A stretch of 32,047 nucleotides of DNA, from the IMG/VR virus record IMGVR_UViG_3300032220_000558, positions 1-32,047 of that record; one strand, given 5' to 3'. Below the pieces are notes generated by a model. That model saw only the letters and a program-made list of their open reading frames with translations. It did not search any database and had not been told where the DNA came from. Shown in pieces: positions 2,357 through 16,701 of the stretch. Within the stretch, counting starts at the first letter, position 1. Each line of letters begins with the position of its first letter. Origin of the DNA: a virus. The position numbers and the translations under genes were made by a program.

Positions 2357-3859
2357 TCAGAACCTAAATGTTGTTTGAATCACACCACCATAATTGTCAG
2401 AAGCTTGCTTCAGACCTTGGTTGTTAGACACATAGAACACAGCAGGAGTTACGCTAATGTTATCACTAACTTTGTAACGATAGAATGCTTCCCACATAAT
2501 TGCCTTCTGATCATCTTTCAGAGAAGCAGCATTGCCAGGAGCACCAATGGCAAATCCAGCAGCATTGCCCTTAGCAAATACATCTGCCCACTGAAGACCA
2601 GCAAACCAAGTTTGTGAATCGGTAGCACCAGTAGGAGTCTGACTGTTGTTAGACAGACTTACAGTGTTCCATCCATAAGCACCACTCACGGAAGGAATGA
2701 TGCCTGACTTCTTGGGTTGCCAGTAAGCATTAAATGCATAACCATTGGAGGTTTGGTTAGCAGCAAGAGCACCAGAACCACCACCAATAGCATTGAAGTT
2801 ACGAACACGAGTTCCTTCAGTACCATATCTATATCCAAAAGCAACTCCAAGTTGAGGAGTACGATAACCAACTTGAGCAAGAGTGTTCAGAGAACCATCT
2901 TCATCAAACTGACCTTTGGTAGAATCATTGCCATTTTGAGCAACATAGTTAATGCCAGCAACAAATCCACCTTTACCTTTCTTAGTAGGTTGAACCCACT
3001 GAGCACCGAAACCAGAACCAGTTGCCTTGTTATAGACACCAGGAGCACCAGCAACTTGGAAGAAATCTAGGATGTCAGACTTGTAAGCAGAGGGAACCCA
3101 TGCCATCTCAGTATTACGAACCTGAGCACCAGCAGTCAGAGTCATGCCTTTGATGAGACCAGGGAAGCTGTAATACAGACGATCTAGAGTCATAGTATTA
3201 GCATATGTTTCTGCCTTGTCCAGTTTAAACAAGGAAGAAGATGAACCAAAAGGTTGACTAGAGAAGTTACCAGAACGCAAACGAGTCTTGAGAAGATCCT
3301 TACCAGTGAAGGAAGTATCAAAACTCAGACGAAGATCATAGTTAAATGCAGTGTTGCCTACATTGCTGCTGTTAGCAAGTCTAGCACCATCTACCCCACC
3401 CAGAACAAAGGTTGCTTCACCCTTGAGTTTAGTGGTAGTGGAGAACTGAGTTGCCTGGAGTGAACCAACTTGTTTTTCAAGTTTAGCAACACGACCTTGA
3501 ATGACAATGAGTTCATTACGAAACTCATTAGCAAGGCGAGTGAGTTCTTCAGTAACTTCAGTTACACGATCAATACAGGCATTGAGAAGTGCTGCTGCCT
3601 CAAAACGAGTCATTGCCTTACCACCAAGGTAAGTACCATTTTCATAACCAGCAACACAACCATAGCGCTCTACTAGGTTATTGAGTGCCTGATATGCCCA
3701 ATCAGTAGGCTTTACATCAGACAGTTGAGTGATGCTTGAAACTTGTTCTGTAGAAACATATTGGTTGACTGCTGCCATATTAAGATCTGCTGCATTTGCA
3801 ACAACAGGAGCAACCATACCTAAAGCAACAGGTGCAAGCATCAGTTGTTTAAATTTCAT
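2357..3859 (-). CDS. Cyanobacterial-type outer-membrane porin (signal peptide, SLH domain, OprB-like barrel)
   Basis: 500 aa. Residues 1-23 form a Sec signal peptide with a likely cut after ANA. Residues 45-100 are an SLH-like domain (LSDVKPTDWAYQAL ... MTRFEAAALLNACID) that anchors to peptidoglycan. Residues 100-137 form a coiled coil, and 140-500 are rich in alternating Gly, aromatic and polar residues as in an OprB-type beta-barrel. The protein ends in TTFRF, with the terminal Phe used for outer-membrane insertion. This is the domain order of SomA/SomB-like porins of marine cyanobacteria, which allow small solutes and ions across the outer membrane. It forms its own transcription unit, between a structured 133-nt leader and a terminator. 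A whole, host-like porin in a phage is unusual. It might change nutrient uptake or mask receptors, but the solute is unknown. Confidence 0.9.
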   Translation of the reverse strand: MKFKQLMLAPVALGMVAPVVANAADLNMAAVNQYVSTEQVSSITQLSDVKPTDWAYQALNNLVERYGCVAGYENGTYLGGKAMTRFEAAALLNACIDRVTEVTEELTRLANEFRNELIVIQGRVAKLEKQVGSLQATQFSTTTKLKGEATFVLGGVDGARLANSSNVGNTAFNYDLRLSFDTSFTGKDLLKTRLRSGNFSSQPFGSSSSLFKLDKAETYANTMTLDRLYYSFPGLIKGMTLTAGAQVRNTEMAWVPSAYKSDILDFFQVAGAPGVYNKATGSGFGAQWVQPTKKGKGGFVAGINYVAQNGNDSTKGQFDEDGSLNTLAQVGYRTPQLGVAFGYRYGTEGTRVRNFNAIGGGSGALAANQTSNGYAFNAYWQPKKSGIIPSVSGAYGWNTVSLSNNSQTPTGATDSQTWFAGLQWADVFAKGNAAGFAIGAPGNAASLKDDQKAIMWEAFYRYKVSDNISVTPAVFYVSNNQGLKQASDNYGGVIQTTFRF

Positions 3860-3975: not shown

Positions 3976-4758
3976 TCAACCAATCAATGGTTCCCAGAAT
4001 CCATAAAATTCATAATCTAATAATTCCTTTGTGCCAAGTTCTGGTGGTCTATTTTTCCAAAAGTTCATGACACCCTCAACATTTTGTTTATGGAAGACTT
4101 CAATGTGATCCTGATGAATTCCAGAATCAAAATCATACCTATAAGTAAACATGGGCATGGAATAAGTCACACCAGAGTTATAAATGATTTCCTCTGATGT
4201 TGCTCTAGGTTTAATCTTTTGATCAAGTCTATACTTATCCCCCCTGATATGATGCTTGATTAATTTTTCTGCATGATGTCTGGTGATAACATAAAAAGCA
4301 GCACAAAAATCATTAATCAATCTTGGGTGTAGGTTTGCCCTAAGATTTTTTGTACTAGTAATTGCACATTGTAGTACATCCCAATCATATGGAACAGCAG
4401 AAAGATATCCGCCCCAAGTAAAAGGCCAATAAGGGACTGTATCAAATACAATGTCGTCTTCACAAATAATAATGTAATCTAGATCTGTGTTGTCATAGAA
4501 GTGCTTGATAGCCTTCAGATGTGACATTGTACATCCAAGTTCCCCTGGAGTCAATAGGTCTGGAAATCTGCCAACTAAAAATTCAGAGACATCATTCTCT
4601 CCTCTAGCATCAATAGCAGAAATCCTAGTGTTTTCAATTTCATAAAAATCAAACAGTTCATTCATGTGATCCTGTCTGTTAGTTTCTGTGTCCAGATTGA
4701 TCCATAATACAGGACCCATCCCCTTAAGTTTCTTTTTTATTGTAGAAGTATCTGTCAT
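3976..4758 (-). CDS. Glycosyltransferase family 25 (LPS-type)
   Basis: 260 aa. GT25 features are clear: INLDTETNR at 20-28 for the nucleotide-sugar fold, GELGCTMSHLKAI at 72-84, and the acidic IICEDDI at 97-103 that holds the metal. GT25 enzymes add galactose or related sugars to lipooligosaccharide cores. An ATG 12 nt upstream is open, but the ATG at 4758 is preceded by GGGGG and overlaps the upstream stop in ATGA, so it is preferred. This is the last gene of the 15-gene glycan operon. It is similar in fold but not in detail to its neighbour at 4755-5402, so two different linkages are likely. Confidence 0.88.
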   Translation of the reverse strand: MTDTSTIKKKLKGMGPVLWINLDTETNRQDHMNELFDFYEIENTRISAIDARGENDVSEFLVGRFPDLLTPGELGCTMSHLKAIKHFYDNTDLDYIIICEDDIVFDTVPYWPFTWGGYLSAVPYDWDVLQCAITSTKNLRANLHPRLINDFCAAFYVITRHHAEKLIKHHIRGDKYRLDQKIKPRATSEEIIYNSGVTYSMPMFTYRYDFDSGIHQDHIEVFHKQNVEGVMNFWKNRPPELGTKELLDYEFYGFWEPLIG

Positions 4759-5402
4759 GGTTTCCCCCATTGTGGATATCTATGTTGTTTCAAAAAAGTA
4801 TAATCCACATTTGCCTTTTCAATATCAGAATAAGTATTCCTTTGCCAAGTTAAATGGGGAATGATTACATAAGCATTAATTTCTTTATGTGATTCTGCAT
4901 AATGCACATCACATGGTTTTGTAATATTAATTAGGTTATCAATAAATCTATCATAAACTGTACTCTTAAATGCAACTGAATGTGCAGCTAAAGTATATTC
5001 ACATCTATAAACATGTTCAGATACCTGCTGAATATTCATTCCATGGAAGTGTTGTCCACCAAGGTATAGCATATCCCAATCAGATGGAACCTCTTCAATA
5101 TACTGGAAAAATAGTTTATTTACATTTTCATCAAACTGAATGTCATCTTCTAATAAGAGGAAATCAGAAAGTCCAAGTTGTTTGGCATACTTAATACAAA
5201 AGAGCTGTGATAATGCACAACCTACTGCACCTTCTTTAATTTCTGGTGGGAAGTCAAGGTTCATTTTAGAACCTTCAATACCAGAAACTCTTTCTACTTT
5301 AAAACCATATTTTGCAAATTGTTTATGTGCTTCTTCCCATCTATCTAATCTAGAATCAAGATTAATACACAAGGTTTTGTGGAAGTAATCAGTTAAAATC
5401 AT
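4755..5402 (-). CDS. Glycosyltransferase family 25 (LPS-type), second copy
   Basis: 215 aa from the ATG at 5402. Motifs are LCINLDSRLDRW near the N-terminus, GAVGCALSQ at 58-66 and LLLEDDI at 82-88, all in GT25 order. The product would transfer a sugar from a nucleotide donor to a lipopolysaccharide-like acceptor on the inner face of the membrane. The upstream ATG at 5414 is rejected because 5402 has GGGAG before it and forms the ATGA overlap with the fucosyltransferase gene. The protein is shorter than many GT25 members at the C-terminus. Donor and linkage cannot be read from sequence. Confidence 0.87.
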   Translation of the reverse strand: MILTDYFHKTLCINLDSRLDRWEEAHKQFAKYGFKVERVSGIEGSKMNLDFPPEIKEGAVGCALSQLFCIKYAKQLGLSDFLLLEDDIQFDENVNKLFFQYIEEVPSDWDMLYLGGQHFHGMNIQQVSEHVYRCEYTLAAHSVAFKSTVYDRFIDNLINITKPCDVHYAESHKEINAYVIIPHLTWQRNTYSDIEKANVDYTFLKQHRYPQWGKP

Positions 5403-6196
5403 AGTGTCTCCCATCCTTCACAGTAAAGATCTGATGTATCATGATCCAAGGAAGGACCAAACCAAATCTTAGGTGCAATAACTTTCTCACTCTTAGCTAA
5501 CCAGGAACCCCACCAAGAGAATGAGGAGTTAGCAATGATATGATACTTACACAGTGACATAAAGCACATATCATGTTCAGCTGAGTTTGCTTGTGATACA
5601 AAGAATCTATCTGGATCAAATACACTCTGCATCAAACACCAATCAATATCATCAGAAAAAATCAATACAGGAACATTTGAAAGTTTCTTTAATGCTTCAA
5701 TATAATATTCAATTGGAGGAATTGGATGGAATGATTGCAAATGTAGGTAATCACTTCTTCTGATATGTAATGAAATTAATTCAGATGATCCTATTTCATT
5801 GGCAATAATTTCTTTGCAAGACTCTACAACTTCAGGTTTAAAAGTAAAATCTTTTCTAATTTCATCTTCAATGTTTTTAAAATACTTTTCTGATTGAAAG
5901 TATCCATAAAGGTCTACATTATCATCACAATTATTGAACAAGTATTCATCAAAATGAAATCCAGATTCCTTAACCATTTTATTTGGTTCAAGAAATTTAT
6001 TACATTTACTTAGATCAAATGCAGTATGAATGTTTGTTTTTGAATTCTTTACATTTGGATCACTAACACCAAAAGAATATTCTGGAGGAATGCAAAAATC
6101 AAATCCTCTATTCGCAGCAATACCTCTTAAAGAGGCGTACTGAAACATTTGGTTTCCTAGTCTTCCTAGGTTTCCTAGTTGATTAAAAGAGATCAT
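5399..6196 (-). CDS. Alpha-1,2-fucosyltransferase-like glycosyltransferase (GT11)
   Basis: 265 aa. GT11 hallmarks are present in order: GRLGNQMFQYASLRG near residues 11-25, HIRRSDY at 144-150 (the basic GDP-fucose-binding motif HxRRxD), LIFSDDIDW at 178-186, and NSSFSWWGSWLA at 223-234. GT11 enzymes move L-fucose from GDP-fucose to the 2-OH of galactose or a similar sugar in LPS or capsule. The same operon encodes gmd and fcl, which make GDP-L-fucose, so donor supply and use are linked. It overlaps both neighbours by 4 nt. Full length with all motifs intact; I expect it to be active. Confidence 0.93.
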   Translation of the reverse strand: MISFNQLGNLGRLGNQMFQYASLRGIAANRGFDFCIPPEYSFGVSDPNVKNSKTNIHTAFDLSKCNKFLEPNKMVKESGFHFDEYLFNNCDDNVDLYGYFQSEKYFKNIEDEIRKDFTFKPEVVESCKEIIANEIGSSELISLHIRRSDYLHLQSFHPIPPIEYYIEALKKLSNVPVLIFSDDIDWCLMQSVFDPDRFFVSQANSAEHDMCFMSLCKYHIIANSSFSWWGSWLAKSEKVIAPKIWFGPSLDHDTSDLYCEGWETL

Positions 6197-6996
6197 TGTA
6201 GGTAATTAAGGTAAATAAAATCTTCAAGAACTTCAATCTGCTTTACCCTTTCCAGATTGTCTTTGATAGCATCTAATTTGCTTTGATAAATTTCTTCTGA
6301 AACTTCAAACTCATCACTTAATTGAATGATGCCATCTTGGTTAAAATGGTTTGCAATGTCAGGAGATCCCAGATAAACAGGGATAGTACCAGTAGCAAAA
6401 CAATCAAGAATCTTCTCTGTGTAGTATGATTCATAAACTCCATTCTCAATAACTACAGAGAACATGTAATCACAGAGACCTTCTTCTTTTGTAGCAATCT
6501 CATTGATTCCTCTTCCATAAAGATCTACTTGGTCTCCAATTTTTTCCACCCACTCAAGTCTATTCTTTTGCCCTTCTGTAAATGCTTTGTTGGATGAGAT
6601 CATAGAAATCATCTTAGTCTTTTCATAGATCTTTGGTTCTTGAATCCAAAAACCTTGGGCAGGACACCACTTAAATCTTGGATCTAAATCAAGAAGTTCT
6701 TTGTCATGAGTAAAGATATACTTAAAGACATTAAAGTATTCTTCTACATTAGACTTAATCTCTTCAGAAATACCTGGGACTACAAATTTAGATTCAAGAA
6801 GCCATCCATATTTGACTCCTTCAACTTTATCAGTAAATGCCTGATTGATGTTTTGATCTACATATACAGTTTCATCTGCAGACAGATCAAATACCCACTC
6901 AACATACTTGGATTCCTTTCCATGTACTGAGTATCCTTTGTTTCCTCCAGTAAGATGTGTAAAGGAATTGCCTACTAAATTAATCTTGTGTTTCAT
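6193..6996 (-). CDS. GT10-family alpha-1,3/1,4-fucosyltransferase-like protein
   Basis: 267 aa. The C-terminal stretch 179-210 carries the GT10 signature: FSVVIENG, a short gap, YYTEKILDCF, then GTIPVYLG, with Glu184, Asn185 and Lys195 at the positions used for GDP-fucose binding. A further GT10-type block begins at SNKAFTEGQKNR near 135. GT10 enzymes add fucose in alpha-1,3 or alpha-1,4 linkage to GlcNAc or Glc. Together with the adjacent GT11 gene this gives two fucosylation steps. It overlaps the upstream gene by 17 nt in another frame and the downstream gene by 4 nt. No membrane segment is seen. Regiospecificity is not predictable. Confidence 0.87.
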   Translation of the reverse strand: MKHKINLVGNSFTHLTGGNKGYSVHGKESKYVEWVFDLSADETVYVDQNINQAFTDKVEGVKYGWLLESKFVVPGISEEIKSNVEEYFNVFKYIFTHDKELLDLDPRFKWCPAQGFWIQEPKIYEKTKMISMISSNKAFTEGQKNRLEWVEKIGDQVDLYGRGINEIATKEEGLCDYMFSVVIENGVYESYYTEKILDCFATGTIPVYLGSPDIANHFNQDGIIQLSDEFEVSEEIYQSKLDAIKDNLERVKQIEVLEDFIYLNYLQ

Positions 6997-7831
6997 AATT
7001 GATATAATTTTTGTTTTTTAAATCTGGTATCTTACTTTCAAAGAAAGGATACATAATCCACTGTGGAGATTTTACCACATATTCTGGTCCCATATCAAGA
7101 GCCTTTTTATAACTTAATCCAGGAAGATTCATAGAGGAAGACCATCTAATTCCAGGAACTCCATATCCCCATTTCTTAATAAAAACATTCATTGAAACTT
7201 CATGATATTTAATGGAGTTCATATGATGAATATCATTTCTAATAAATCCAGAATGTCTTTCAAAATCTACAAACTCATAATCAATTTTATTATGAACTCT
7301 AAAATGAGGAAAATCATTGATTGAACTATTTTCTTTATTGTAAATCATTTGTCTCAGAAAATAATCACAATCTTGCCATCCAATATTGCAAAATCTTTCA
7401 TCCCAAAGACCAACAGAACTGATAGCATTTGGAGTATAACTATGGAATGCATCACCACACCCATAAGAAATAAAACTATACTTTTTATGATACTCAATTA
7501 AAGTATCAATAATATCTTCATTATACTCAACATCATTTTGAGATAGTATTACAATATCTGCATCAGGATTTTCAAGATCTTTAAACCCATCAATCAAACA
7601 CTCATTCCAATTTCTTGCAAGATGTCCTGTAGAAAAACTTGGTCTTGTTTGATTGGTAACAACTTTAACTGGAAGATTAACATCTTCCAAAATGACAGAT
7701 GCATCTCTAAAATTATTAATTACAGTAACTTCATAATCATATTTTTTAATTCCACTTTTCTCAAAAGTCTTTAGAGTTTTATTCAACTCCAAGTCATTAT
7801 CATAAGTTACAAAGTATACTTTAATTTTCAT
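6980..7831 (-). CDS. GT-A-type glycosyltransferase (GT2-like)
   Basis: 283 aa. The N-terminus (KIKVYFVTYDNDLELNKTL, then VTVINN) is a GT2-like Rossmann half. A candidate acidic metal site lies in ILSQNDVEY around 96-102, and CNIGWQDCDYF later resembles the ED-type catalytic region of GT2 enzymes. It probably transfers a sugar onto the growing glycan. The start at 7831 is the only ATG that fits; the reading frame further upstream opens with TTG. It overlaps the upstream methyltransferase stop as ATGA. Donor sugar is unknown, and the family match is moderate. Confidence 0.68.
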   Translation of the reverse strand: MKIKVYFVTYDNDLELNKTLKTFEKSGIKKYDYEVTVINNFRDASVILEDVNLPVKVVTNQTRPSFSTGHLARNWNECLIDGFKDLENPDADIVILSQNDVEYNEDIIDTLIEYHKKYSFISYGCGDAFHSYTPNAISSVGLWDERFCNIGWQDCDYFLRQMIYNKENSSINDFPHFRVHNKIDYEFVDFERHSGFIRNDIHHMNSIKYHEVSMNVFIKKWGYGVPGIRWSSSMNLPGLSYKKALDMGPEYVVKSPQWIMYPFFESKIPDLKNKNYINYETQD

Positions 7832-8562
7832 AGGATACAAATAGCAGTGTCTTGGACCATGTTATCATGGTAATATTCATCATTCCATTCTTCAAAGTCC
7901 CACTTAATTAATTCAAGTTCATCATAGAACTGTCTTACATCTTTAAGTCTAATGTCCCATACATTATCAATAACAATGAGAGTGTCTTTATCTGCCACTG
8001 TCATAGCAACTTCAAAATCTCTCTTCACCCCCTCATAGGAATGATCACCATCAACAAAGATAAGATCATACCTACCACCAAAATCTTTTGATGCTTCTTT
8101 TAGAATAGCAACATTCTTTTCAGTGATTTCATCATTTGTATAATTAACAAAATCATTAAATGGAAGATCTACCTTATATTTCCAATCATCATAATCTGAA
8201 TGGTGAGGATACCAGTACCTAGCATTAATTCTATCTGAGTGTGGAAGGTATGAAATTTGTCCATCATACCCACCCTTTCTAATATCAAAGGAATCAATCA
8301 CCCCAAATCCATCTTCTCCATAAAGTTCATCCATGGCATATGCCATAGCATTAGAACTTTCATAATGCCAAGATCCAATCTCAAGAACTGTCTTTGCTTC
8401 AATCATCTTAACAAGAGTTGCTAAGCAATTTCTACAATGAGTTGAAGCACCTTCATACTTAAACCCCTGGAGGATGCCATTCTCAGGTCCTTTATCTACA
8501 TAATAATTCTTGAATTCATTTTTAATAAATTCAACTTTATTTGCATAACCTTTATAACCCAT
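7828..8562 (-). CDS. Class I SAM-dependent methyltransferase (Methyltransf_24-like)
   Basis: 244 aa. Motif I is VLEIGSW (59-65), an acidic residue follows in VIDSFD, and DLIFVDGDHSYEGV (around 166-179) is the hallmark of the Methyltransf_24 or cephalosporin-hydroxylase-like group often found in sugar-modification clusters. Later IVIDNVWD fits motif VI. The likely job is O-methylation of a sugar or sugar nucleotide, though members of this group can be hydroxylases or act on other groups. The ATG at 8562 is used; the codon before it is TTG. The start overlaps the SGNH stop in TGATG, and the stop overlaps the next gene by 4 nt. Confidence 0.77.
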   Translation of the reverse strand: MGYKGYANKVEFIKNEFKNYYVDKGPENGILQGFKYEGASTHCRNCLATLVKMIEAKTVLEIGSWHYESSNAMAYAMDELYGEDGFGVIDSFDIRKGGYDGQISYLPHSDRINARYWYPHHSDYDDWKYKVDLPFNDFVNYTNDEITEKNVAILKEASKDFGGRYDLIFVDGDHSYEGVKRDFEVAMTVADKDTLIVIDNVWDIRLKDVRQFYDELELIKWDFEEWNDEYYHDNMVQDTAICIL

Positions 8563-9206
8563 CAAATTAATCCTCTTTTTTCAAAAGCTTTTAGAATTGT
8601 TGGCATTGCTCTTTGAGACAAATGCATATGAGATCCCTCCCAATCATCTAGAAAATCTGGAATTGTTTTCATATCATCAGTTACCATGTCATAAAAAATA
8701 GATACAAATTTGAATCCTTCTTTTACACATGCTAACTGCAATGCAATATTAAATGCAAATGTAACCCAATTCCTTTCTTGATTTGTACCAAAGGAAGGTC
8801 CACCAGTGTATTCCTTCTCTTCAGACCATGAAGCAATAGGACCCCAAACTATAATCTGGACTCCATATTTTTTATAGTAAGTGAGAGCATTGACATATCT
8901 TTCAACACATTCTACCACAATATCATTAACAGGTCTATCCTGCATTTTTGCTTGCTTAATCAAATGTGCTCTAATGTCAACTTCTCCAAAGCAAAACATC
9001 AACTTATCATCAACCCCAAGATCCAAAGAACTAATTAATGAGTCTATAATTGGTTGTTTATTTGCTATCTGATATGCAGTTGCTGGACCAATTCTATAAC
9101 TCTTAAAGTAAGGGAGTGTATTTGCTGCTGGATCTGGCCAACAAGGTTGCATTGCTTCTTCACCACTGAAGACTGCTGAATGACTATCACCAATACAATG
9201 AATCAT
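8562..9206 (-). CDS. SGNH-type hydrolase/esterase
   Basis: 214 aa. GDSHS at 6-10 is block I with the nucleophile Ser8. FGEVDIR around 73-79 replaces the usual GxND block III, and DWEGSHMHLS near the C-terminus supplies the DxxH-like Asp and His. SGNH enzymes in glycan clusters usually add or remove O-acetyl groups, or cleave esters on polysaccharides. There is no signal peptide, so it would act in the cytoplasm on precursors. It is located between two methyltransferase/transferase genes in the operon, which fits a tailoring role. The substrate is not predictable, and GEVD in place of GxND is a family variant seen in sugar-modifying members. Confidence 0.72.
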   Translation of the reverse strand: MIHCIGDSHSAVFSGEEAMQPCWPDPAANTLPYFKSYRIGPATAYQIANKQPIIDSLISSLDLGVDDKLMFCFGEVDIRAHLIKQAKMQDRPVNDIVVECVERYVNALTYYKKYGVQIIVWGPIASWSEEKEYTGGPSFGTNQERNWVTFAFNIALQLACVKEGFKFVSIFYDMVTDDMKTIPDFLDDWEGSHMHLSQRAMPTILKAFEKRGLI

Positions 9207-10165
9207 TTTAATTTACCAAGAATACTTTCTACAAATTCTACTTCATAAGTGTACCCATCTTCCATTCCTATGTTCCAAACATTCTTGTTACCATAGATTG
9301 TATTGTAGATGGTGTGGATTCCAAATCCATTTTCAACATAAAGAAACTTTTTATTATATCTTTCTCTATAAATGTTTAATTGAATTTCATCAAATGAGTC
9401 ATAAGAACCAACCTCTAAAAGTTTTCTCCAATCCTCAGTCTTAATTATAAAAGTGCTAGTTGTATAATAAGGTTCTGTAAATTCTTTAATGCTGTAGTCA
9501 TGCTTTGATACTAATCTATCAAAGTTTTCTACAATATAATTGTTTAATAATAATTGAGACTTAGCACAAATTCTGATAGGGTGTATTCCCTTTAAGTATG
9601 TATTCAGTTTAGAAACACCATCAAAAAATGCATCAGAATCCCAAGTCTTTGCATTGATAGTATATGCATTAAGAGGAGTATAATCTGCACCCCACAATCC
9701 ATTGGGCATTTCTTGATTTAAATAATTTCTATAAATTGCTCCTACTGTCCAAGGATCTTTTATAAAAGATTTTACAAATCTATCTGTATGAGGAATGCCA
9801 TTAGATAGCATTGGAGTCAAAATAAAATTATCTTCATCATCCAAAACATCTATATTCTCAATGATATAATCCCAAACATGGTTTGAGATGAAACAATCTT
9901 CATCTAGTTTTACAGAGTACTTACTTGTAGAAGATAGTGCAACACTAACCTTCTGCATATAATTTAGATTTACATCAGGAAACTGATAAATTTCAAAATC
10001 AAATCCCTTTAGATAATAACTCCAATCATTTACTCTACTTGCAAGAATATTAATCTTTACTTTTTCTTTGTTCTCTGGTTTTATCTTATTGAGAAAGTGG
10101 GAGGTTATTTCCCAATACTTATGAAAGTCCCTTCTGTCATGGGAAAGATAATTTATAGTAATCAT
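9203..10165 (-). CDS. Probable glycosyltransferase, GT-A-like
   Basis: 320 aa. The N-terminus (TINYLSHDRRDF) and a candidate DxD metal site, KLDEDCF with Asp88 and Asp90, suggest a GT-A fold glycosyltransferase. The rest (LWGADYTPLNAYTINAKTW and a long polar C-terminus) gives no sharper assignment. It overlaps both neighbours by 4 nt as ATGA, so expression is coupled to the methyltransferase upstream and the SGNH hydrolase downstream. The role in adding a sugar is inferred from motif and context; it could instead act as a non-catalytic glycan protein. Confidence 0.55.
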   Translation of the reverse strand: MITINYLSHDRRDFHKYWEITSHFLNKIKPENKEKVKINILASRVNDWSYYLKGFDFEIYQFPDVNLNYMQKVSVALSSTSKYSVKLDEDCFISNHVWDYIIENIDVLDDEDNFILTPMLSNGIPHTDRFVKSFIKDPWTVGAIYRNYLNQEMPNGLWGADYTPLNAYTINAKTWDSDAFFDGVSKLNTYLKGIHPIRICAKSQLLLNNYIVENFDRLVSKHDYSIKEFTEPYYTTSTFIIKTEDWRKLLEVGSYDSFDEIQLNIYRERYNKKFLYVENGFGIHTIYNTIYGNKNVWNIGMEDGYTYEVEFVESILGKLK

Positions 10166-10842
10166 GGCAGTTTTGATAGATTAACAATGTTTAACTCATC
10201 TTGTTTATAGGATATAACTTTTTTAAATCCACAATAATCAAACATTTCTTCTACCAATTCTATATCAAAAGTGTGATGATGTACAACTCTGGTTAGGTGA
10301 TTTATTTCACACAATTCATAGAACTGATGATGTCCACCATAACTCCAATCATGAAGATCTTTTTGCTCTTGGATGTGAGTGGTATCATCTTCTCCAATAT
10401 CAGTATTATAATCTTCAATCAAATGTTCCATGGTAGTTAATGGTCTTTTTCTATCAAAGCAATATTGATAATCTGGAACTATAGAAAGAATATATCCATT
10501 CTCTTTAAGTAGATATTTTTCCCACAACTTTAAAGTTTTAATTGGATTGGCAAAATGCTCTATGGCATGAGAAGTAACAATAAAATCATACTTCCTCAAT
10601 CTCTTTAGTTGATCTTCATTTGTACAATCAACATCATATTGCTTACCAAGTTTTTGTCCATACAAAAAATTAGATCCCAAATTAGATTGGAAATAATTAT
10701 TTTTTATAATATTTCCACCATCTAGATGCACATGTGGATACAGGTGCATACCATACTGGGGACTAGAAAAAAGTTCAGTTGGTCCACCAAACTCAATTCC
10801 ACTCTTATCTTTTAGAGAATTTATAATTAATTCAAAGGACAT
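10162..10842 (-). CDS. Class I SAM-dependent methyltransferase (type 11-like)
   Basis: 226 aa. SGIEFGGPTELF near the N-terminus is an altered motif I. The best block is DFIVTSHAIEHFANPIKTL (86-104), the motif IV to V region of type 11 methyltransferases, followed by GYILSIVPD. After that lies HDWSYGGHHQFYEL, a His-rich loop seen in similar sugar-cluster enzymes. It may methylate a sugar hydroxyl. The start overlaps the upstream gene by 16 nt in another frame with no clear Shine-Dalgarno, so the exact start is less sure. The Gly-rich loop is unusual (EFGGPT instead of ExGxGxG). Confidence 0.72.
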   Translation of the reverse strand: MSFELIINSLKDKSGIEFGGPTELFSSPQYGMHLYPHVHLDGGNIIKNNYFQSNLGSNFLYGQKLGKQYDVDCTNEDQLKRLRKYDFIVTSHAIEHFANPIKTLKLWEKYLLKENGYILSIVPDYQYCFDRKRPLTTMEHLIEDYNTDIGEDDTTHIQEQKDLHDWSYGGHHQFYELCEINHLTRVVHHHTFDIELVEEMFDYCGFKKVISYKQDELNIVNLSKLP

Positions 10843-11690
10843 AATACATTTATGTTGTAGGACAATTCTTTAACCAAAAAATATTTTTTTGCTATACTTA
10901 ATGAAGGATAGTAGATTAAACCATTAAATGGTTCAATATCTATAAACACATTTTGATCCCCAATGTGAGGATAAGGTGAGGTAATAATTTCTTCTAAAAT
11001 TCTTTCTTTGGGAAGTCTAGTAAAATAATAATAAAAAATATCTAAAGGTTGATGCTTACCAAAAGGATGAAGTTCTGGACTAAATTGTTGTTCTAATAAT
11101 TGAGTTATATGATATGGTTCTGCTGCATCATATCCAAGATTAATTTTATTTCCAACTTGGACTCCAACATATCCAGCAGCAGTGCACTGATCTCCTATTT
11201 TCATTTCACCATCATGATCATCATCAAACTCCCATTCAATCTGCTTTAATACTTCTGCTTTAGCAAACCAAAAAGGAGCTCTTATATGACTTTCATGTGG
11301 ATATCTTTTATGTCCATTGAAGATTTGACTAGCACCAAATCCAATCTTGTCATGTAGATCTAGTGTATCTACAATATCCTTTAACCATCCATCTCTTTTT
11401 AGAACTACATCATCAGAGATAAAAACAAAGTACTCATAGTCATTTTGATACTTGTAGAAGTAATGTCTATATGCACCAAATGCTCTGTGGGGTATATCTC
11501 TACCATTTACAATTTTATTATGGATGATCATTCTGCCATCCACATTCCTTAGATTAGTAGGAACTCCCAGATAATTTCTATGAATCAATATGAGGTCATG
11601 AGGATACCCAGACTTACAATTAAAATAAGATGGCCAAAACAGGTCTCCCTGCTGTTGACCACCCAACATAATAACTGCAACTTTCTTCAT
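10827..11690 (-). CDS. Probable glycosyltransferase with SDD metal site
   Basis: 287 aa. An N-terminal strand (KKVAVIMLGG) and FVFISDDVVLKRDGWL, with SDD at 92-94, have the look of a GT-A metal-binding site followed by the 'xGWL' helix common to phage and LPS transferases. PFWFAKAEVL and GDQCTAAGYVG later are typical of an acceptor-side lid. I place it as a glycosyltransferase of unknown family. It starts with a 4-nt overlap with the gene before and ends inside the start of the methyltransferase gene (16-nt overlap). Confidence 0.6.
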   Translation of the reverse strand: MKKVAVIMLGGQQQGDLFWPSYFNCKSGYPHDLILIHRNYLGVPTNLRNVDGRMIIHNKIVNGRDIPHRAFGAYRHYFYKYQNDYEYFVFISDDVVLKRDGWLKDIVDTLDLHDKIGFGASQIFNGHKRYPHESHIRAPFWFAKAEVLKQIEWEFDDDHDGEMKIGDQCTAAGYVGVQVGNKINLGYDAAEPYHITQLLEQQFSPELHPFGKHQPLDIFYYYFTRLPKERILEEIITSPYPHIGDQNVFIDIEPFNGLIYYPSLSIAKKYFLVKELSYNINVLCPLN

Positions 11691-12373
11691 TGGACCATCC
11701 TAAGTTTTTGAATTGTTTCTTCCCCAGCAACATTAAATGCAGGATCTTTAAACTTCAAGGATCTAACAGTTGAATATGGATTGATTGAAAAGTCATACAT
11801 TTGTCTAACTTTTTTTGACCAAACAACATCTTCTCCTTGTCCCCAACAAAGATTATCATCTAGAGGATGCTCCTCCATAACTTGTCTCTTAGCAACCCAA
11901 TAAGTACCAGAGATGTATTGATACTTTGAAAGATGGGTCATGTCATATGGAATCAAACACTCCCTATTTGGGAGGACAATATCATCCATAAAGTTTTCAT
12001 TGTGAGGCCAGATCACCCAATCCCTGAATCTAGAATAGTCTGGATTGACAAACTTATTCATACAGATTTTAAAGTCTTCCCCAAACTGAAGAAATCCTTC
12101 ATACCATCCAGGCTCAAAAACAACATAGTCATGACTATAGACTACATTTTCATATCTGGCATTAATAGTAATTAAATTTTTCTTTCTGGTGATCCATGCC
12201 TGTCTAATACTTTCATCAAAAGGAATGATGAAAGTATTATTTCTAGAGACATTACTATTACCAACTATCAAAATTTGGTACTCTGGAATGTTCTGCTGTT
12301 CTATACTGTCAATTACAGTATGTAAAGTATCATCAGAGTTACCTGATGTAATGATTCCAAAGGTAAACTTCAT
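11687..12373 (-). CDS. GT2-like glycosyltransferase with HDY in place of DxD
   Basis: 228 aa. It has the GT2 entrance (FGIITSGNSDDTLHTVIDSI, then YQILIVGNS). It then has ITRKKNLITINARYENV and SHDYVVFEPGW, where His81-Asp82-Tyr83 takes the place of the DxD motif, and later WGQGEDVVWSKKVR (177-190), the ED motif for the catalytic base. This arrangement is typical of a subgroup of GT2 enzymes in surface-glycan clusters. It is expected to transfer one sugar of the glycan. Overlaps of 4 nt on each side couple it to the GDPD-like and GT genes. Confidence 0.78.
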   Translation of the reverse strand: MKFTFGIITSGNSDDTLHTVIDSIEQQNIPEYQILIVGNSNVSRNNTFIIPFDESIRQAWITRKKNLITINARYENVVYSHDYVVFEPGWYEGFLQFGEDFKICMNKFVNPDYSRFRDWVIWPHNENFMDDIVLPNRECLIPYDMTHLSKYQYISGTYWVAKRQVMEEHPLDDNLCWGQGEDVVWSKKVRQMYDFSINPYSTVRSLKFKDPAFNVAGEETIQKLRMVQ

Positions 12374-12834
12374 TGCAAGAAACTCACATAATCACTACAA
12401 ATGCCAAAGCAATCATATGCCCTGAGATCTACAAACTCATCTATATTTTTATTCCACTCTGGCATTACAATAACTGATTTGGGAGTATAAGGTTTGCCAG
12501 GATAAGTCCAAATATAATTTCTACTTGTGAGCGTGTAATCATCTTCCTGATGCCAAAAGTAATTGAATCCACTAGTCCCTCTAGAGAACTCATAAAGTGC
12601 TTCAATATTCTTACAGTGAATCCAAAGATAATCTCTATATTTTCCAAACCAAAACCAATCTATCTTATAGTCTGGCTCATCATGTCCAAGATAAAGTCTA
12701 TTATCAATAGGACTATATCTTACATCAACCTCAACATCAAATCCCTGAGAAATTGCTTGTTCAATATACTCAGGATTATTTTCCTTTGAGGGATCAGGAC
12801 CATCAATGTTTCCTCTGTGTGCAATCAGTTTCAT
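12370..12834 (-). CDS. Short GDPD-like phosphodiesterase-fold protein
   Basis: 154 aa. It resembles the catalytic core of glycerophosphodiester phosphodiesterases: IAHRGN (His6, Arg7), an ENNPEYIEQA helix, EVDVR (Glu35, Asp37) and LYLGHDEP with His51 correspond to the metal and catalytic residues. It is much shorter than the usual 230-250 aa, so the second half of the TIM-barrel is reduced. Similar short forms accompany sugar nucleotidyltransferases in surface-glycan clusters, where they may act on a phosphorylated sugar or glycerol-phosphate rather than on lipids. The substrate is not known. ATGA overlaps on both sides. Confidence 0.72.
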   Translation of the reverse strand: MKLIAHRGNIDGPDPSKENNPEYIEQAISQGFDVEVDVRYSPIDNRLYLGHDEPDYKIDWFWFGKYRDYLWIHCKNIEALYEFSRGTSGFNYFWHQEDDYTLTSRNYIWTYPGKPYTPKSVIVMPEWNKNIDEFVDLRAYDCFGICSDYVSFLQ

Positions 12835-14198
12835 TCTTTATAGTGCTCCAAGAAATAATTTAGATCTTCAGGAGTTCCAATTCCCCACATTCCATCCTTT
12901 TCAATTTCTTTAATTCTGATTTTTTTACCATCAGCAATTGCTTCATTGAATACAGGACAGACATAGAATTCATTGTTAACTCTAATGTCCTTATCAATCA
13001 TTTGTTCAGCATACTTTACATAGTCAGAACCTTTCTTCCAATAGTAGATACCAACAGTTGCATGTTCTGAAATTGGTTTCTTTTCTGCAACCTCAGTTAC
13101 ATAACCATCTTCGCCAAGTTTAGCATAGGACCACTTAGGATGAGTTGCAGGGAATGTCAGAATACCACCATCACAATCTCCATTTTGGAAAGCATAAAGA
13201 GTTTCATTTGAATCCCAAACAACAAACTGATCAGAGTTTGCCATTACCAGTGGTTCATCATTGTTGATAAACTCTTTAGCAAGTAATGTAGTACATGCTG
13301 CACCTTCAGTGATTCCATCTACCTGAACAATATTACAATCAGGAGCAATCAAAGGAAGCAAGTAGTTCAGATTATACTTTTCATAATGCTCTTTCTGAAC
13401 AATAAAAGTATAGTTTGCTTTGATATTCAAGTTCTCTACTACCACCTGAATCATGGGTTTGCCTCTAACTTCAATCAGAGGTTTGGGGAAGGTGTACCCC
13501 TGACTAGCAAATCTACTGCCAGCACCTGCCATAGGGATCAGGACATTCATAGTTTTACTCTCCCATGCAACCTTTTGCTTTGATCCATTCAGAATCTTTT
13601 TAATTCTATTAATCTTCTCTTGATTAAGATCTTTTCTATTCTCTACTGCAACCAAGTGTGCCTTGCTATCCAGAGCACCTTGTCTTCCAATATGACTATC
13701 TTCAACAATCACAGTGTCTGCTGGGAGAGCACCCAGAGCAGTCATACACTTCCAATACATTGCAGGGAATGGTTTATTTCTAACCACATCCTCATTGGAC
13801 ACATACATGTCCACAAACTCCAATACTCCTAATCTCAATAAAATGATTTTAACAGTATTCCTAATAGAGTTGGAAGCAACAGCAATCTTATATCCAGCAT
13901 CTACAAGTTGCTGAAAATATCCCATCAATTCATAGTCTTTTGCAACACAATCATTAAAGATCTTGAGTGTTGCCTCTTGCTTATCTCTCCAGATTTGATC
14001 ATAGAGTTCTACAGGCAATCCCTTATTCTTGGTAAGAAGTTCTAGTTTTGCTCTAGTAGGAAGTCCATCATAAATGCTTACATGATCTTCTCTACTAATG
14101 GCATACTCTTCTCCAAGTGCCTGGTTTAGTGCCTCATAGTGATAGTCTTTACTATCAATCAGAACACCATCTAAATCAAAGATTACTAGTTTGCTCAT
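12831..14198 (-). CDS. Fusion of HAD phosphatase and sugar-1-phosphate nucleotidylyltransferase
   Basis: 455 aa. Residues 1-about 210 are a HAD hydrolase of the beta-phosphoglucomutase type: DLDG with Asp8 and Asp10, ASNS at 108-111, Lys142 in NKPFP, and VEDS at 165-168. Residues 217-455 are a nucleotidylyltransferase: IPMAGAGSRF (221-230) and PKP (238-240), then GKPMI. A single chain could dephosphorylate or isomerise a sugar phosphate and then activate a sugar-1-phosphate to NDP-sugar, as in heptose or similar pathways with HAD and HddC-like steps. The internal Met at 217 could also be a start of its own. The start at 14198 is preferred to 14261 because [11 protein letters not shown] begins the domain exactly; it overlaps fcl by 23 nt. 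Confidence 0.85.
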   Translation of the reverse strand: MSKLVIFDLDGVLIDSKDYHYEALNQALGEEYAISREDHVSIYDGLPTRAKLELLTKNKGLPVELYDQIWRDKQEATLKIFNDCVAKDYELMGYFQQLVDAGYKIAVASNSIRNTVKIILLRLGVLEFVDMYVSNEDVVRNKPFPAMYWKCMTALGALPADTVIVEDSHIGRQGALDSKAHLVAVENRKDLNQEKINRIKKILNGSKQKVAWESKTMNVLIPMAGAGSRFASQGYTFPKPLIEVRGKPMIQVVVENLNIKANYTFIVQKEHYEKYNLNYLLPLIAPDCNIVQVDGITEGAACTTLLAKEFINNDEPLVMANSDQFVVWDSNETLYAFQNGDCDGGILTFPATHPKWSYAKLGEDGYVTEVAEKKPISEHATVGIYYWKKGSDYVKYAEQMIDKDIRVNNEFYVCPVFNEAIADGKKIRIKEIEKDGMWGIGTPEDLNYFLEHYKE

Positions 14199-15114
14199 TC
14201 TTGTACCACTCATATGTTTCATAGATTCCTTGTCTAAGTCCAATCTTAGGACTCCAACCAAGTGATTTAATTTTATCTACATTTAATACCTTTCTAGGTG
14301 TTCCATTAGGTTTGGAATCATCCCACATTGTTAATCCTCCATATCCAACAATAATAGAAATAAGTCTTGTTAGTTCTCTGATGGATACATCTTCTCCAGT
14401 TCCAACATTAATAATTTCAGAATCATTATATGAAATCATACATCTAAAACAAGCTTCTGCCAAGTCATCAACATGCAGAAACTCTCTCATAGGAGAACCA
14501 TCTCCCCAACATTCAACATAAGGTGCATTAGATTCCTTTGCTTCATGGAACTTTCTAATCAATGCAGGAAGCACATGTGAGCTTTGAAGATCAAAATTAT
14601 CATTAGGACCATAGAGATTAGTTGGCATCAGTGAGATGGCATTAAACCCATATTGCTCTCTATATGCCTGACACATTTTTATGCCAGCAATCTTAGCAAT
14701 AGCATAAGCATCATTGGTTGGTTCCAAAGGACCACCAAGAAGATCATCTTCAATGATTGGCATGTGCTCTGGCCATCTTGGATAAATGCAAGAGGATCCA
14801 AGAAACAAAAGTTTTTTGACATTCCACTTGTATGCACAATGAATAATATTGTTCTGAATCATTAGATTTTGATACAGAAAATCAGCTTTGCATAGTTTGT
14901 TTGCCATGATGCCACCAACTTTGGCAGCAGCAACAAAAACATATTCAGGTTTATTTCTACTGAAATAAAATTCAGTATCTTCTTGATCAGTAAAATCAAC
15001 TCTATCACGAGTTGCTTCATTGACATAATATCCCTTCTTCTTCAAGTTCCTCACGATTGCTGAGCCAACCATTCCTTTGGCACCAGCAACCATAATCTTA
15101 GAATCACTGTCCAT
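14176..15114 (-). CDS. fcl: GDP-L-fucose synthase
   Basis: 312 aa, the normal length. It converts GDP-4-keto-6-deoxymannose to GDP-L-fucose with NADPH (epimerase plus reductase). The cofactor motif is GAKGMVG (11-17), the catalytic Ser is in GSSCIYP, and Tyr-Ala-Ile-Ala-Lys is the YxxxK pair. [12 protein letters not shown] and [13 protein letters not shown] are diagnostic of this enzyme. The ATG at 15114 fits; the frame further up opens with TTG. It overlaps gmd by 11 nt. With gmd it forms the complete two-step route from GDP-mannose to GDP-fucose, feeding the GT10 and GT11 enzymes of the operon. Confidence 0.95.
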
Positions 15115-16105
15115 AAATGCACATGTCCTCAATCAATTGATCAAATGAAATTTTAGGTTCCCAACCTAATTCAACTTTTGCCTTTGTGGCATCACCTAAT
15201 AAAGTCTCTACTTCAGCAGGTCTAAAATATTTAGGATCTACTGCAACCACCCTCTTTCCTGTGTTAGTATCAATTCCAATTTCATCAAGACCCTCACCTT
15301 CCCAGGCAATATTGTATCCAAAATAGGGTGCTGTCTTTTCTACAAACTCTTTGACTGAATACTGTTGTCCAGTAGCAATCACATAATCTTCTGCAGTTTC
15401 TTGTTGAAGCATCAACCACATTGCTTCAACATAATCTTTTGCATGTCCCCAGTCTCTCTTAGCATTAAGATTACCAAGATAAAGAGTGTCTTGTAACCCA
15501 GAAGTCATTCTTGAAAATGCTCTGACAATCTTTCTAGTTACAAATGTTTCTCCTCTTCTAGGAGATTCATGGTTGAATAGAATGCCAGTGCAGGCATACA
15601 TTCCATATGATTCACGATAGTTCTTTGTAATCCAATAGGCATAGAGTTTTGCTACACCATAAGGAGACCTTGGATAAAAAGGTGTTGTCTCTTTCTGTGG
15701 AGTCTCTTGAACAAGACCATACAGTTCACTAGTAGATGCTTGATAAATTCTTACCTTCTCCTCCATACCAAGAAGTCTAACTGCTTCAAGAACTCTTAGA
15801 GTTCCAACACCATCCACATCAGCAGTATACTCTGGCATCTCAAATGAAACCTTTACATGACTTTGTGCTGCAAGGTTATAGATTTCATCTGGTTGTACTA
15901 ACTGAATAACTCTAACTAAGTTTGTAGAATCAGTAAGGTCCCCATAATGGAGATGAATTCTATCATATACATGATCAATACGATGTGTATTGATAAGGGA
16001 AGATCTTCTAATAATGCCATGAACTTCATAACCTTTCTCCAAAAGGAGCTCAGCCAAGTAGGATCCATCTTGTCCTGTAATTCCTGTTATTAGTGCTGTC
16101 TTCAT
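15104..16105 (-). CDS. gmd: GDP-mannose 4,6-dehydratase
   Basis: 333 aa, slightly short but within the family range. It converts GDP-D-mannose to GDP-4-keto-6-deoxy-D-mannose. [13 protein letters not shown] (7-19) binds [17 protein letters not shown] is the family loop, STSELYG gives the catalytic Thr and Glu, and YGVAK the YxxxK pair. It is the first gene of the 15-gene glycan operon and lies about 20 nt from a near-consensus host promoter, so it is likely transcribed by host polymerase from early in infection. GDP-mannose must come from the host, since no mannose-activating enzyme is clear here unless the HAD-nucleotidyltransferase fusion provides it. Confidence 0.96.
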
Positions 16106-16124: not shown

Positions 16125-16153
16125 ATTATACAAAAAAAGAGGGGTCTTGTAAA
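16125..16153 (-). promoter_or_regulatory. Sigma70-type promoter of the glycan operon
   Basis: On the minus strand TTTACA (16153-16148), a 17-nt spacer and TATAAT (16130-16125) match the sigma70 consensus in 11 of 12 positions. Transcription would start near 16118, ahead of gmd at 16105. The -35 box lies in the loop of the terminator hairpin before it, as at 2288-2316. No other promoter of this quality is seen across the 12 kb to 3976. Confidence 0.85.
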
Positions 16154-16161
16154 CCCCTCTT
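16132..16161 (-). terminator. Rho-independent terminator between the tRNA/RNA region and gmd
   Basis: An 8-bp stem (AGAGGGGT with ACCCCTCT; 16138-16145 with 16153-16160), extendable by one A-T pair, with a 7-nt loop and then seven T on the minus strand. It ends the transcript of the tRNA-Met/structured-RNA region and contains the -35 box of the gmd promoter. Confidence 0.9.
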
Positions 16162-16367
16162 GATTCCGTATTTGCAGGCTCGCCACCAATTCTTTGACTG
16201 GAAATTGGAAACCAGGCGGGAGTAAGATCCCATCCGCACCACTTGCTCTTTGAGGAAGCAAGAAACCTAATGAGGGTCATATTGACTCCACCAGGATTTT
16301 TAAAGTCTTTCCATGACTGAAGGGGGGGTTTCCCGACCAGGGTGCTTTTTAAGTCATCCCAAGACTA
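16162..16367 (-). ncRNA. Candidate structured RNA between tRNA-Met and the terminator
   Basis: No convincing gene fills these 206 nt. On the minus strand they contain short hairpins that share loops on different stems: AGTC-TTGGGAT-GACT (16352-16366), AGTC-ATGGAAA-GACT (16304-16318) and GCGG...CCGC around ATGGGAT (16216-16237), each followed within about 10 nt by CTGGT; then CTTGCT-TCCTCAAAG-AGCAAG (16242-16262) and CCAATT-TCCAGTCAAAG-AATTGG (16186-16208), the last inside an outer stem (16179-16184 with 16215-16220). It ends in the terminator and directly follows a tRNA, like the stable RNAs C and D in the T4 tRNA cluster. An open frame from 16280 with a GGAG site runs through the terminator and gmd start, so I favour RNA. 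The fold and function are inference. Confidence 0.4.
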
Positions 16368-16440
16368 TGCTCCTTGTGAGGATCGAACTCACCTGGGATC
16401 GATTATGAGTCGATTGCTTTCACCAGATAGCTAAAGGAGC
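16368..16440 (-). tRNA. tRNA-Met (anticodon CAU)
   Basis: A 73-nt cloverleaf. The acceptor stem is GCTCCTT with AAGGAGC and discriminator A, the D stem starts GCT, the anticodon stem is ATCGA/TCGAT with loop CTCATAA (anticodon at 16405-16407), and the T stem is GTGAG/CTCAC with TTCGATC. All stems pair well. It lacks the unpaired 1:72 base pair of initiator tRNA, so it is an elongator; a CAU tRNA can also be tRNA-Ile2 if lysidine-modified. CCA is not encoded. Confidence 0.92.
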
Positions 16441-16444
16441 AGAG

Positions 16445-16527: not shown

Positions 16528-16701
16528 TCAAGAAGCTTCATCATGTTCAAAATACCCATCATAATAATCTGAATAATCATCATATGGAATAAGAACAAGG
16601 TCCTTATCATCAGTACGTATGAGGAAATGCTCCCCCTCTTCTACTCTTTCCATAATTACATCAAAGTTTTCTTCTAGTTCTTGCACTGTAATTTCTGTCA
16701 T
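16528..16701 (-). CDS. Small Phd/YefM-like protein
   Basis: 57 aa. MTEITVQELEENFDVIMERVEEGEHFLI and then VLIPYDDY follow the pattern of Phd/YefM antitoxins: an opening strand, 'xFxxxxxRVExGExxxI' helix and turn, and a 'vLiPxxxY' strand. These proteins bind DNA as dimers and neutralise a partner toxin through their C-terminal tail. Here the tail is very short and acidic, and no toxin gene (Doc- or YoeB-like) lies beside it. It might be a free-standing antitoxin that counters a host toxin, or a small regulator. No clear Shine-Dalgarno is seen. The similarity is my reading of the pattern, not a search result. Confidence 0.6.
   Translation of the reverse strand: MTEITVQELEENFDVIMERVEEGEHFLIRTDDKDLVLIPYDDYSDYYDGYFEHDEAS

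Follow-up and report, generated by a model that had tools for sequence, protein, structure and literature searches.

The 32,047-nt viral DNA analyzed here (IMG/VR record IMGVR_UViG_3300032220_000558; referred to as the window) contains, at 16162 to 16367, a stretch lying between a tRNA gene and an intrinsic terminator, and it raises the question of what this stretch encodes. The sequence-only reading had taken it for a structured non-coding phage RNA beside a tRNA, which was supported: the stretch was a real structured RNA, located on the minus strand. It very probably consists of tandem H-type pseudoknots (two A-type units plus two B-type units, the latter being the wcaG RNA) that run from the tRNA-Met end to the terminator, with pairings, not codons, being conserved. 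Half of the stretch was already catalogued (wcaG, RF01761), which the earlier reading had missed.

Genomic location of the stretch

The window was part of a T4-like cyanophage, with DSL-LC03 as the closest isolate (78% identity, with 45% of a 12-kb piece covered). The minus strand displayed the order Phd/YefM-like antitoxin gene, tRNA-Ile, tRNA-Met, stretch, terminator, sigma-70-like promoter, and gmd (Table 1). tRNA-Met had the discriminator base A at 16368, did not encode CCA, and ended one base ahead of the first A unit, as expected from the claim that the stretch follows a tRNA; the strong terminator claimed to close it was likewise present (hairpin 16161-16137), and the RNA predicted from 16367 to the terminator was about 237 nt. 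The promoter comprised TTTACA (16153-16148), a 17-nt spacer, and TATAAT (16130-16125); within 16125-16161 (minus strand), the loop of the terminator contained the -35 box, and its T run was the promoter spacer, as at the corresponding place in 70/87 relatives. The first gene past the promoter, gmd, opened a GDP-mannose/fucose plus glycosyltransferase cluster; the whole 12-kb region of nucleotide-sugar, glycosyltransferase, and methyltransferase genes spanned 3976-16105 (minus strand), and next came a porin-like ORF of 500 aa (2357-3859, minus strand) whose start resembled a signal peptide. No toxin gene was seen adjoining the Phd/YefM-like gene at 16528-16701, upstream of the two tRNAs; such genes without an adjoining toxin recurred just upstream of the tRNA/array locus in L063 (6634-6837), L070 (2872-3048), and many related phages.

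Table 1. Features of the array and its flanks in the window
Feature	Position	Strand	Evidence
Phd/YefM-like antitoxin gene	16528..16701	-	phrog_375, E 3.8e-12; PF02604, E 1.9e-5, below curated cut-off
tRNA-Met (CAU)	16367..16441	-	ARAGORN; Rfam tRNA 53.4 bits
A-type pseudoknot unit 1	16334..16367	-	R1 model 41.3 bits; knot pairs placed by homology with unit 2
Unit 1 linker hairpin CGGGAAACCCCCCC	16322..16335	-	sequence; CGGGAGCAACCCC and similar kept in relatives
A-type pseudoknot unit 2	16288..16319	-	R1 model 46.4 bits; covariation
Unit 2 linker hairpin GGAGUCAAUAUGACCC	16273..16289	-	sequence; kept in relatives
wcaG RNA (RF01761), full length 1-98	16172..16270	-	98.9 bits, gathering score 42, E 5e-18
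B-type pseudoknot 1 in wcaG	16242..16268	-	covariation AGG/CCU, GAG/CUC in relatives
B-type pseudoknot 2 in wcaG	16186..16215	-	covariation CUGG/CCAG, CAGG/CCUG, CCUG/CAGG, CCAG/CUGG, UAGG/CCUA
Intrinsic terminator	16132..16161	-	11-bp stem AAGAGGGGUUU/AGACCCCUCUU plus T run
Sigma-70-type promoter over terminator	16125..16153	-	11/12 consensus matches
GDP-mannose 4,6-dehydratase (gmd)	15104..16105	-	ORF; PHROG 540 nucleotide-sugar epimerase, E 2.9e-105

A-type units

The 5' half of the stretch (16366-16271, minus strand) was composed of two copies of a ~46-nt A-type unit, each displaying the layout of a 4-bp stem, a loop N-Y-G-G-N-N-N, an A-rich tail, CUGGU, and a short G/C hairpin: (i) unit 1 had the hairpin AGUC-UUGGGAU-GACU (16366-16352; arms AGUC 16366-16363 and GACU 16355-16352) and the knot pairs loop U16361 with tail A16343 and loop G16358 with C16344, and (ii) unit 2 had the hairpin AGUC-AUGGAAA-GACU (16318-16304; arms AGUC 16318-16315 and GACU 16307-16304), the tail UUAAAAAUC followed by CUGGU, and the pair loop U16313 with tail A16297. 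The pattern WTGGRAWGACTTNAAAA occurred twice in the 32-kb window, both times in the stretch (mean 0 over 100 shuffles), and 16366-16271 (minus strand) gave zero family matches in Rfam 15, even at E = 5.

Three hairpins with (A/T)TGG(A/G)A(A/T) loops had been read here, of which hairpins 1 and 2, with CUGGU after them, were retained, while the third was not: in its putative loop AUGGGAU (in CGGAUGGGAUC), UGGGA formed an arm of the middle wcaG stem in the Rfam structure. The idea of one loop kept on changed stems applied to relatives, among which the A-unit stems were AGUC, AGAC, CGUC, CGAC, CGUG, and UGUC, but not to the two window copies, which had identical stems.

IMG/VR was scanned with two exact patterns (more than 200 loci among the matches listed), and 67 distinct A units with 7-nt loops, drawn from the IMG/VR matches listed, made up the covariation set. 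The second loop base and the tail base three positions ahead of CUGG were C:G in 42 units, U:A in 24, and another combination in 1 (n = 67, kinship ignored); this loop-tail pair was outside the selection criteria for the 67 units, while complementarity of the stem P1, at every pair of which double changes were found, was inside them. These two bases changed together, and each A unit was thus an H-type pseudoknot. In the long-tail class, a second knot pair (loop 5 with tail -4) was present in 25/25 units, with AU, GC, and UA types and 11 double changes. The covariation score of the whole structure was reached by 0/500 shuffles, and slid registers were all far below it. When pattern matches were taken without any pairing criterion, the loop-tail pair was found in 87/100 and P1 was complete in 80, compared to 37 for shuffled strands; 12 of the 13 loop-tail misses also had no full P1 and were mostly the same element one base out of register. 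Units in arrays were mostly spaced 45-48 nt apart, and adjacent units of one array had different pair types in 18/79 cases, so the changes were not one inherited event. The covariation in homologues on which the sequence-only reading had staked its proposal was therefore present, and the A-type unit was a compact pseudoknot with near-perfect covariation that was absent from Rfam. Thermodynamic z-scores (free energy; whole stretch z = -1.23, 5' half z = +0.88) were discarded as uninformative, the support for structure resting on covariation.

Two further arrangements of A units were observed. L122 (6553), L123 (3170), L162 (4635), and L205 (4432) each displayed a tRNA, a single A unit, a terminator/promoter, and a gmd-like gene without the wcaG core; judging from these sequences, the A unit can apparently stand without that core. 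In the AGAC class (L003 2241-2498 plus relatives, phrog_481), the A unit doubled as the end of the upstream CDS (...Glu-Asp-Thr-Glu-Ser-Leu-stop), the same stretch thereby being both protein code and pseudoknot.

The wcaG RNA and its B-type units

The 3' half of the stretch was a full-length, high-scoring wcaG RNA located upstream of a GDP-mannose/fucose cluster, as originally described, but it was here just one part of a longer tandem array, the A- and B-type units forming one tandem chain. Both of its hairpins were pseudoknots: (i) B-type knot 1 paired AGG (16268-16266) with CCU (16255-16253) and had a UUU loop, the stem CUUGC/GCAAG (hairpin 16262-16242), and an A-rich loop, and (ii) B-type knot 2 paired CUGG (16215-16212) with CCAG (16201-16198) and had a UUU loop, the stem CCAAU/AUUGG (hairpin 16208-16186), and the loop UCAAAGA. 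The two hairpins with TCC..TCAAAG loops on unrelated stems that had been noticed earlier were thereby recovered, as UUCC...CAAAGA-type loops on the different stems CUUGC/GCAAG and CCAAU/AUUGG. Helix II of the B units was fully paired in 129/141 unselected matches, and the knot helix was paired in 81/130 (shuffled mean 25, maximum 38). In both knots, the first loop was UUU and the third was A-rich; triple-helix pseudoknots likewise combine a U-rich first with an A-rich third loop. In S-PM2 and L004, an A-type unit replaced the first wcaG hairpin. No novelty is claimed for the knots relative to the drawing published in 2010.

In 2010, the wcaG RNA, originating from marine and cyanophage sequences, was put forward as probably cis-regulatory and possibly a riboswitch, located near exopolysaccharide or high-light genes (Weinberg et al., PMC2864571), and this description was repeated in later phage papers (PMC9602691 and PMC9964418). 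In contrast to it, no sugar gene followed the array in many isolates. A co-oriented sugar gene was located downstream of wcaG in the window, with a terminator and a promoter between them, and tRNA genes occupied that place in other phages; the position of wcaG before a terminator plus promoter makes the label of 5' leader doubtful. The wcaG pattern gave at least 118 matches in bacterial genome contigs; among the matches listed, none had wcaG context by a motif check, and the three cyanobacterial ones were dismissed by eye as chance.

Position and distribution of the array across phages

Among 227 A units, 65 were second in an array, and 17 were located behind a tRNA, 14 of them abutting it exactly. 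In most of the remaining A units, a stop codon overlapped the stem (-2, +1, and +2) or fell in the tail (+18 and +19), whereas 5.5% of random positions had a stop codon within -15 to +10. Just past wcaG, a terminator was found in 80/87 loci (control 13%) and a promoter in 76/87 (control 19%). With its start at a stop codon or tRNA and a terminator after it, the array was interpreted as the end of the upstream transcript.

Both models were searched against 24 genomes or records, in which the Synechococcus phages had been picked because they matched. The wcaG RNA was found at one locus in each of the 24 genomes, with most A units located within 1 kb of it and one or two small genes sometimes lying in between. 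The A-unit model had no match in 2/24 genomes (syn9 and, when whole genomes were scanned, S-SKS1), and the only strong A unit of S-RIM8 was far from its wcaG RNA, directly after tRNA-Leu. The first IMG/VR scan had suggested a dispersed repeat family, which was rejected on the whole-genome scans, as these usually showed a single locus containing 1-3 A units. In the majority of the Synechococcus T4-like phages examined, the array was present at a single locus, and neither model matched in the six Prochlorococcus myoviruses P-SSM2, P-SSM4, P-SSM7, P-HM1, P-HM2, and P-RSM4. A gene for a small two-helix membrane-like protein (phrog_2318) separated the A units from the wcaG core in L010 (7102-7326) and many IMG/VR loci, and a hairpin with compensatory changes overlapped its stop codon.

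Recurrent upstream neighbors of the array were a Phd-like antitoxin, the gp206/GC250 family, and tRNAs. Its downstream genes overall included sugar genes, tRNA-Gly/Pro/Met, hli, and 2OG-oxygenase, arranged as follows: (i) a nucleotide-sugar or polysaccharide gene directly after the array in S-SM2, Bellamy, S-SKS1, DSL-LC03, and IMG/VR loci, (ii) such a gene a gene or two past the array in S-SCSM1 and Sf-FS3, (iii) a tRNA gene in S-RIM8, S-CREM1, S-CAM1, S-CAM3, S-PM2, and S-RSM4, and (iv) high-light genes in syn9. Because the downstream genes vary, control of sugar genes is not the general purpose of the array, though it may be a local one. A match to cyanobacterial-type tmRNA (128 bits) was additionally seen in S-CAM1 (L226 391-659), just before tRNA-Arg plus tRNA-Val.

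Possible functions of the array

One explanation, proposed for wcaG in 2010 (PMC2864571), is a cis-regulatory leader, possibly a riboswitch, that would sense a metabolite or condition and thereby control whether transcription from the tRNA/small-gene side continues past the terminator into the cluster of sugar or high-light genes. An array, a terminator, and then a co-oriented gene were found at nearly every locus, the next gene having the same direction in 69/69 readable IMG/VR loci (phage genes mostly run one way), and the IMG/VR downstream genes were overwhelmingly nucleotide-sugar or polysaccharide ones. This explanation is nevertheless rather unlikely: the next gene has its own promoter, with the -35 box inside the terminator loop in 70/87 wcaG loci; a tRNA gene comes next in the phages named under (iii) above; and the recurring upstream neighbors contrast with a changing downstream cassette. 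A covarying antiterminator was not found (terminator arm versus its own core 7.51, shuffled 7.49 +/- 0.08), and a simple terminator/antiterminator switch was rejected, since terminator arms and core do not covary. The array could also be a 3'-end stabilizer or processing spacer, in which the knots would stop exonucleases working 3'-to-5' or direct cleavage to the A-rich tails, protecting phage transcripts, and the several units would be spare barriers. It fits with units starting precisely at tRNA ends or at stop codons, with the closing terminator, and with the triple-helix-like loops of the B units, but a stabilizer would be expected behind many genes and not at mostly one locus per genome, and the sequence is conserved far beyond the need of a passive block; we regard it as unlikely.

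Terminator and promoter overlap at most loci, and one flank is conserved while the other is a variable cassette, which recalls the PeSL cassettes described for T4-like phages (cited in PMC4503421). That the array is such a promoter-terminator cassette, which marks the border of a variable region and mediates gene shuffling there, with the knots carried along, is highly improbable, as the compensatory knot changes would be left unexplained and in fact lower DNA identity, and hence recombination. Scarcely credible is a 76-aa small protein encoded from 16280 through wcaG: GGAG a few bases ahead of ATG and the open frame in the window speak for it, but the frame of the conserved GGTGCGG relative to the start was 19/18/18, stops lay inside it in 36/55 relatives, and there were zero Pfam or PHROG matches. 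A conserved coding sequence from 16280 was thereby refuted, in line with the earlier statement that the stretch fits no protein.

The best overall explanation, which the sequence comparison leads us to favor with about even confidence, would be a discrete non-coding RNA. It would be made as the 3' tail of a tRNA/small-gene transcript and freed, as an RNA of ~237 nt with its 3' end at the terminator, by a cut at the tRNA 3' end (normal maturation, past the discriminator base), while the next gene would be served by its own promoter within the terminator. The repeated knots, in each of which the same GG or U/A-rich elements lie exposed, would provide several putative sites for a single protein, from either the phage or its Synechococcus host, which the RNA would titrate or shield. 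The repetition of the knots points to one partner binding several times, and action in trans as a protein-binding RNA is a tentative but reasonable possibility. Against one discrete RNA stands the small gene between A units and wcaG in many loci, which means that the array is not always an uninterrupted non-coding RNA.

By analogy, the array might, as a long shot, be a phage decoy for host toxins that are normally held by knotted RNA antitoxins, i.e., a multi-site pseudo-antitoxin freed from the tRNA transcript within a small counter-defense island. A pseudo-ToxI of this decoy sort is known from phage escape mutants (PMC5086642). The context of such a decoy would include the orphan Phd/YefM antitoxin genes near the array, the abiF RNA of S-CREM1 without an AbiF toxin gene, and the presence of the array in Synechococcus phages together with its not being found in the six Prochlorococcus myoviruses tested.

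As a candidate riboswitch of marine origin, the wcaG RNA has long lacked a ligand; should it prove instead to close a knot chain running from tRNA ends or stop codons to a terminator, the search for a ligand would be misdirected, and a protein partner would be the target. The A-type unit covaries near-perfectly and is not in Rfam, which would permit the annotation of many phage genomes in one go.

Comparison with known RNA systems

The type III antitoxins (ToxI and CptI) were the closest match for a possible way of working, given their tandem knots and terminator. They and the array share tandem H-type pseudoknots, a variable unit number, and an intrinsic terminator directly after, and CptI additionally shares a one-base first loop plus an A-rich later loop. 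The units are comparable in length, at 34-36 nt in ToxI and more in CptI (PMC5086642), and about 46 nt in the array; in contrast to type III antitoxins, units within one array differ from each other. The array matched no antitoxin family in Rfam. A cognate endoribonuclease was not found past the terminator, where the gene was gmd or another, and PF13958 scored above its cut-off in 0/15 phage records; as no toxin gene follows, the array does not qualify as a type III antitoxin. ToxN was found in 0/299 host-order genomes, a weak result since no control matched.

In S-CREM1, an abiF RNA (RF03085, 52 bits; L223 5885-5921, OP535465 10531-10567) was observed in the tRNA cluster, and this abiF RNA and a manA RNA (RF01745) were located in the same tRNA region as the array. 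The two differ from the array in having separate models, with no A unit within either. In C. difficile, abiF RNA acts as an RNA antitoxin (PMC12373285), and by analogy the S-CREM1 copy is possibly an orphan RNA antitoxin: Abi_2 was not found in S-CREM1. It was found in 0/9 phages and in 4/200 host-order genomes.

The loops of the common class (CACGGAUGG and CAUGGAGAG) agree with the CsrA consensus. A CsrA/RsmA sponge was rejected, only GG and not GGA being invariant in the loops, and CsrA was excluded as a partner in the host order, with PF02599 in 0/200 genomes while controls matched. The PeSL cassettes of T4-like phages, as defined in text citing them, resemble the locus in fusing a terminator hairpin with an early-type promoter, and differ in that the element here comes after a pseudoknot array and has its -35 box within the terminator loop.

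T4 RNAs C and D, of which the sequence-only reading had suggested a counterpart, agreed with the array in position but not in sequence or model similarity. The R1 model, run with filters off on the T4 rnaC/rnaD region, gave a best score of 5.7 bits (E 0.44) and no homology, and these RNAs have long-range stems in place of a chain of short knots. They share with the array the position at the end of a tRNA cluster: rnaD (L367 1554-1748), located where the T4 tRNA cluster ends, starts one base past tRNA-Arg, and the A unit is placed likewise. The array accordingly offers a concrete, testable parallel to the still unexplained T4 RNAs C and D.
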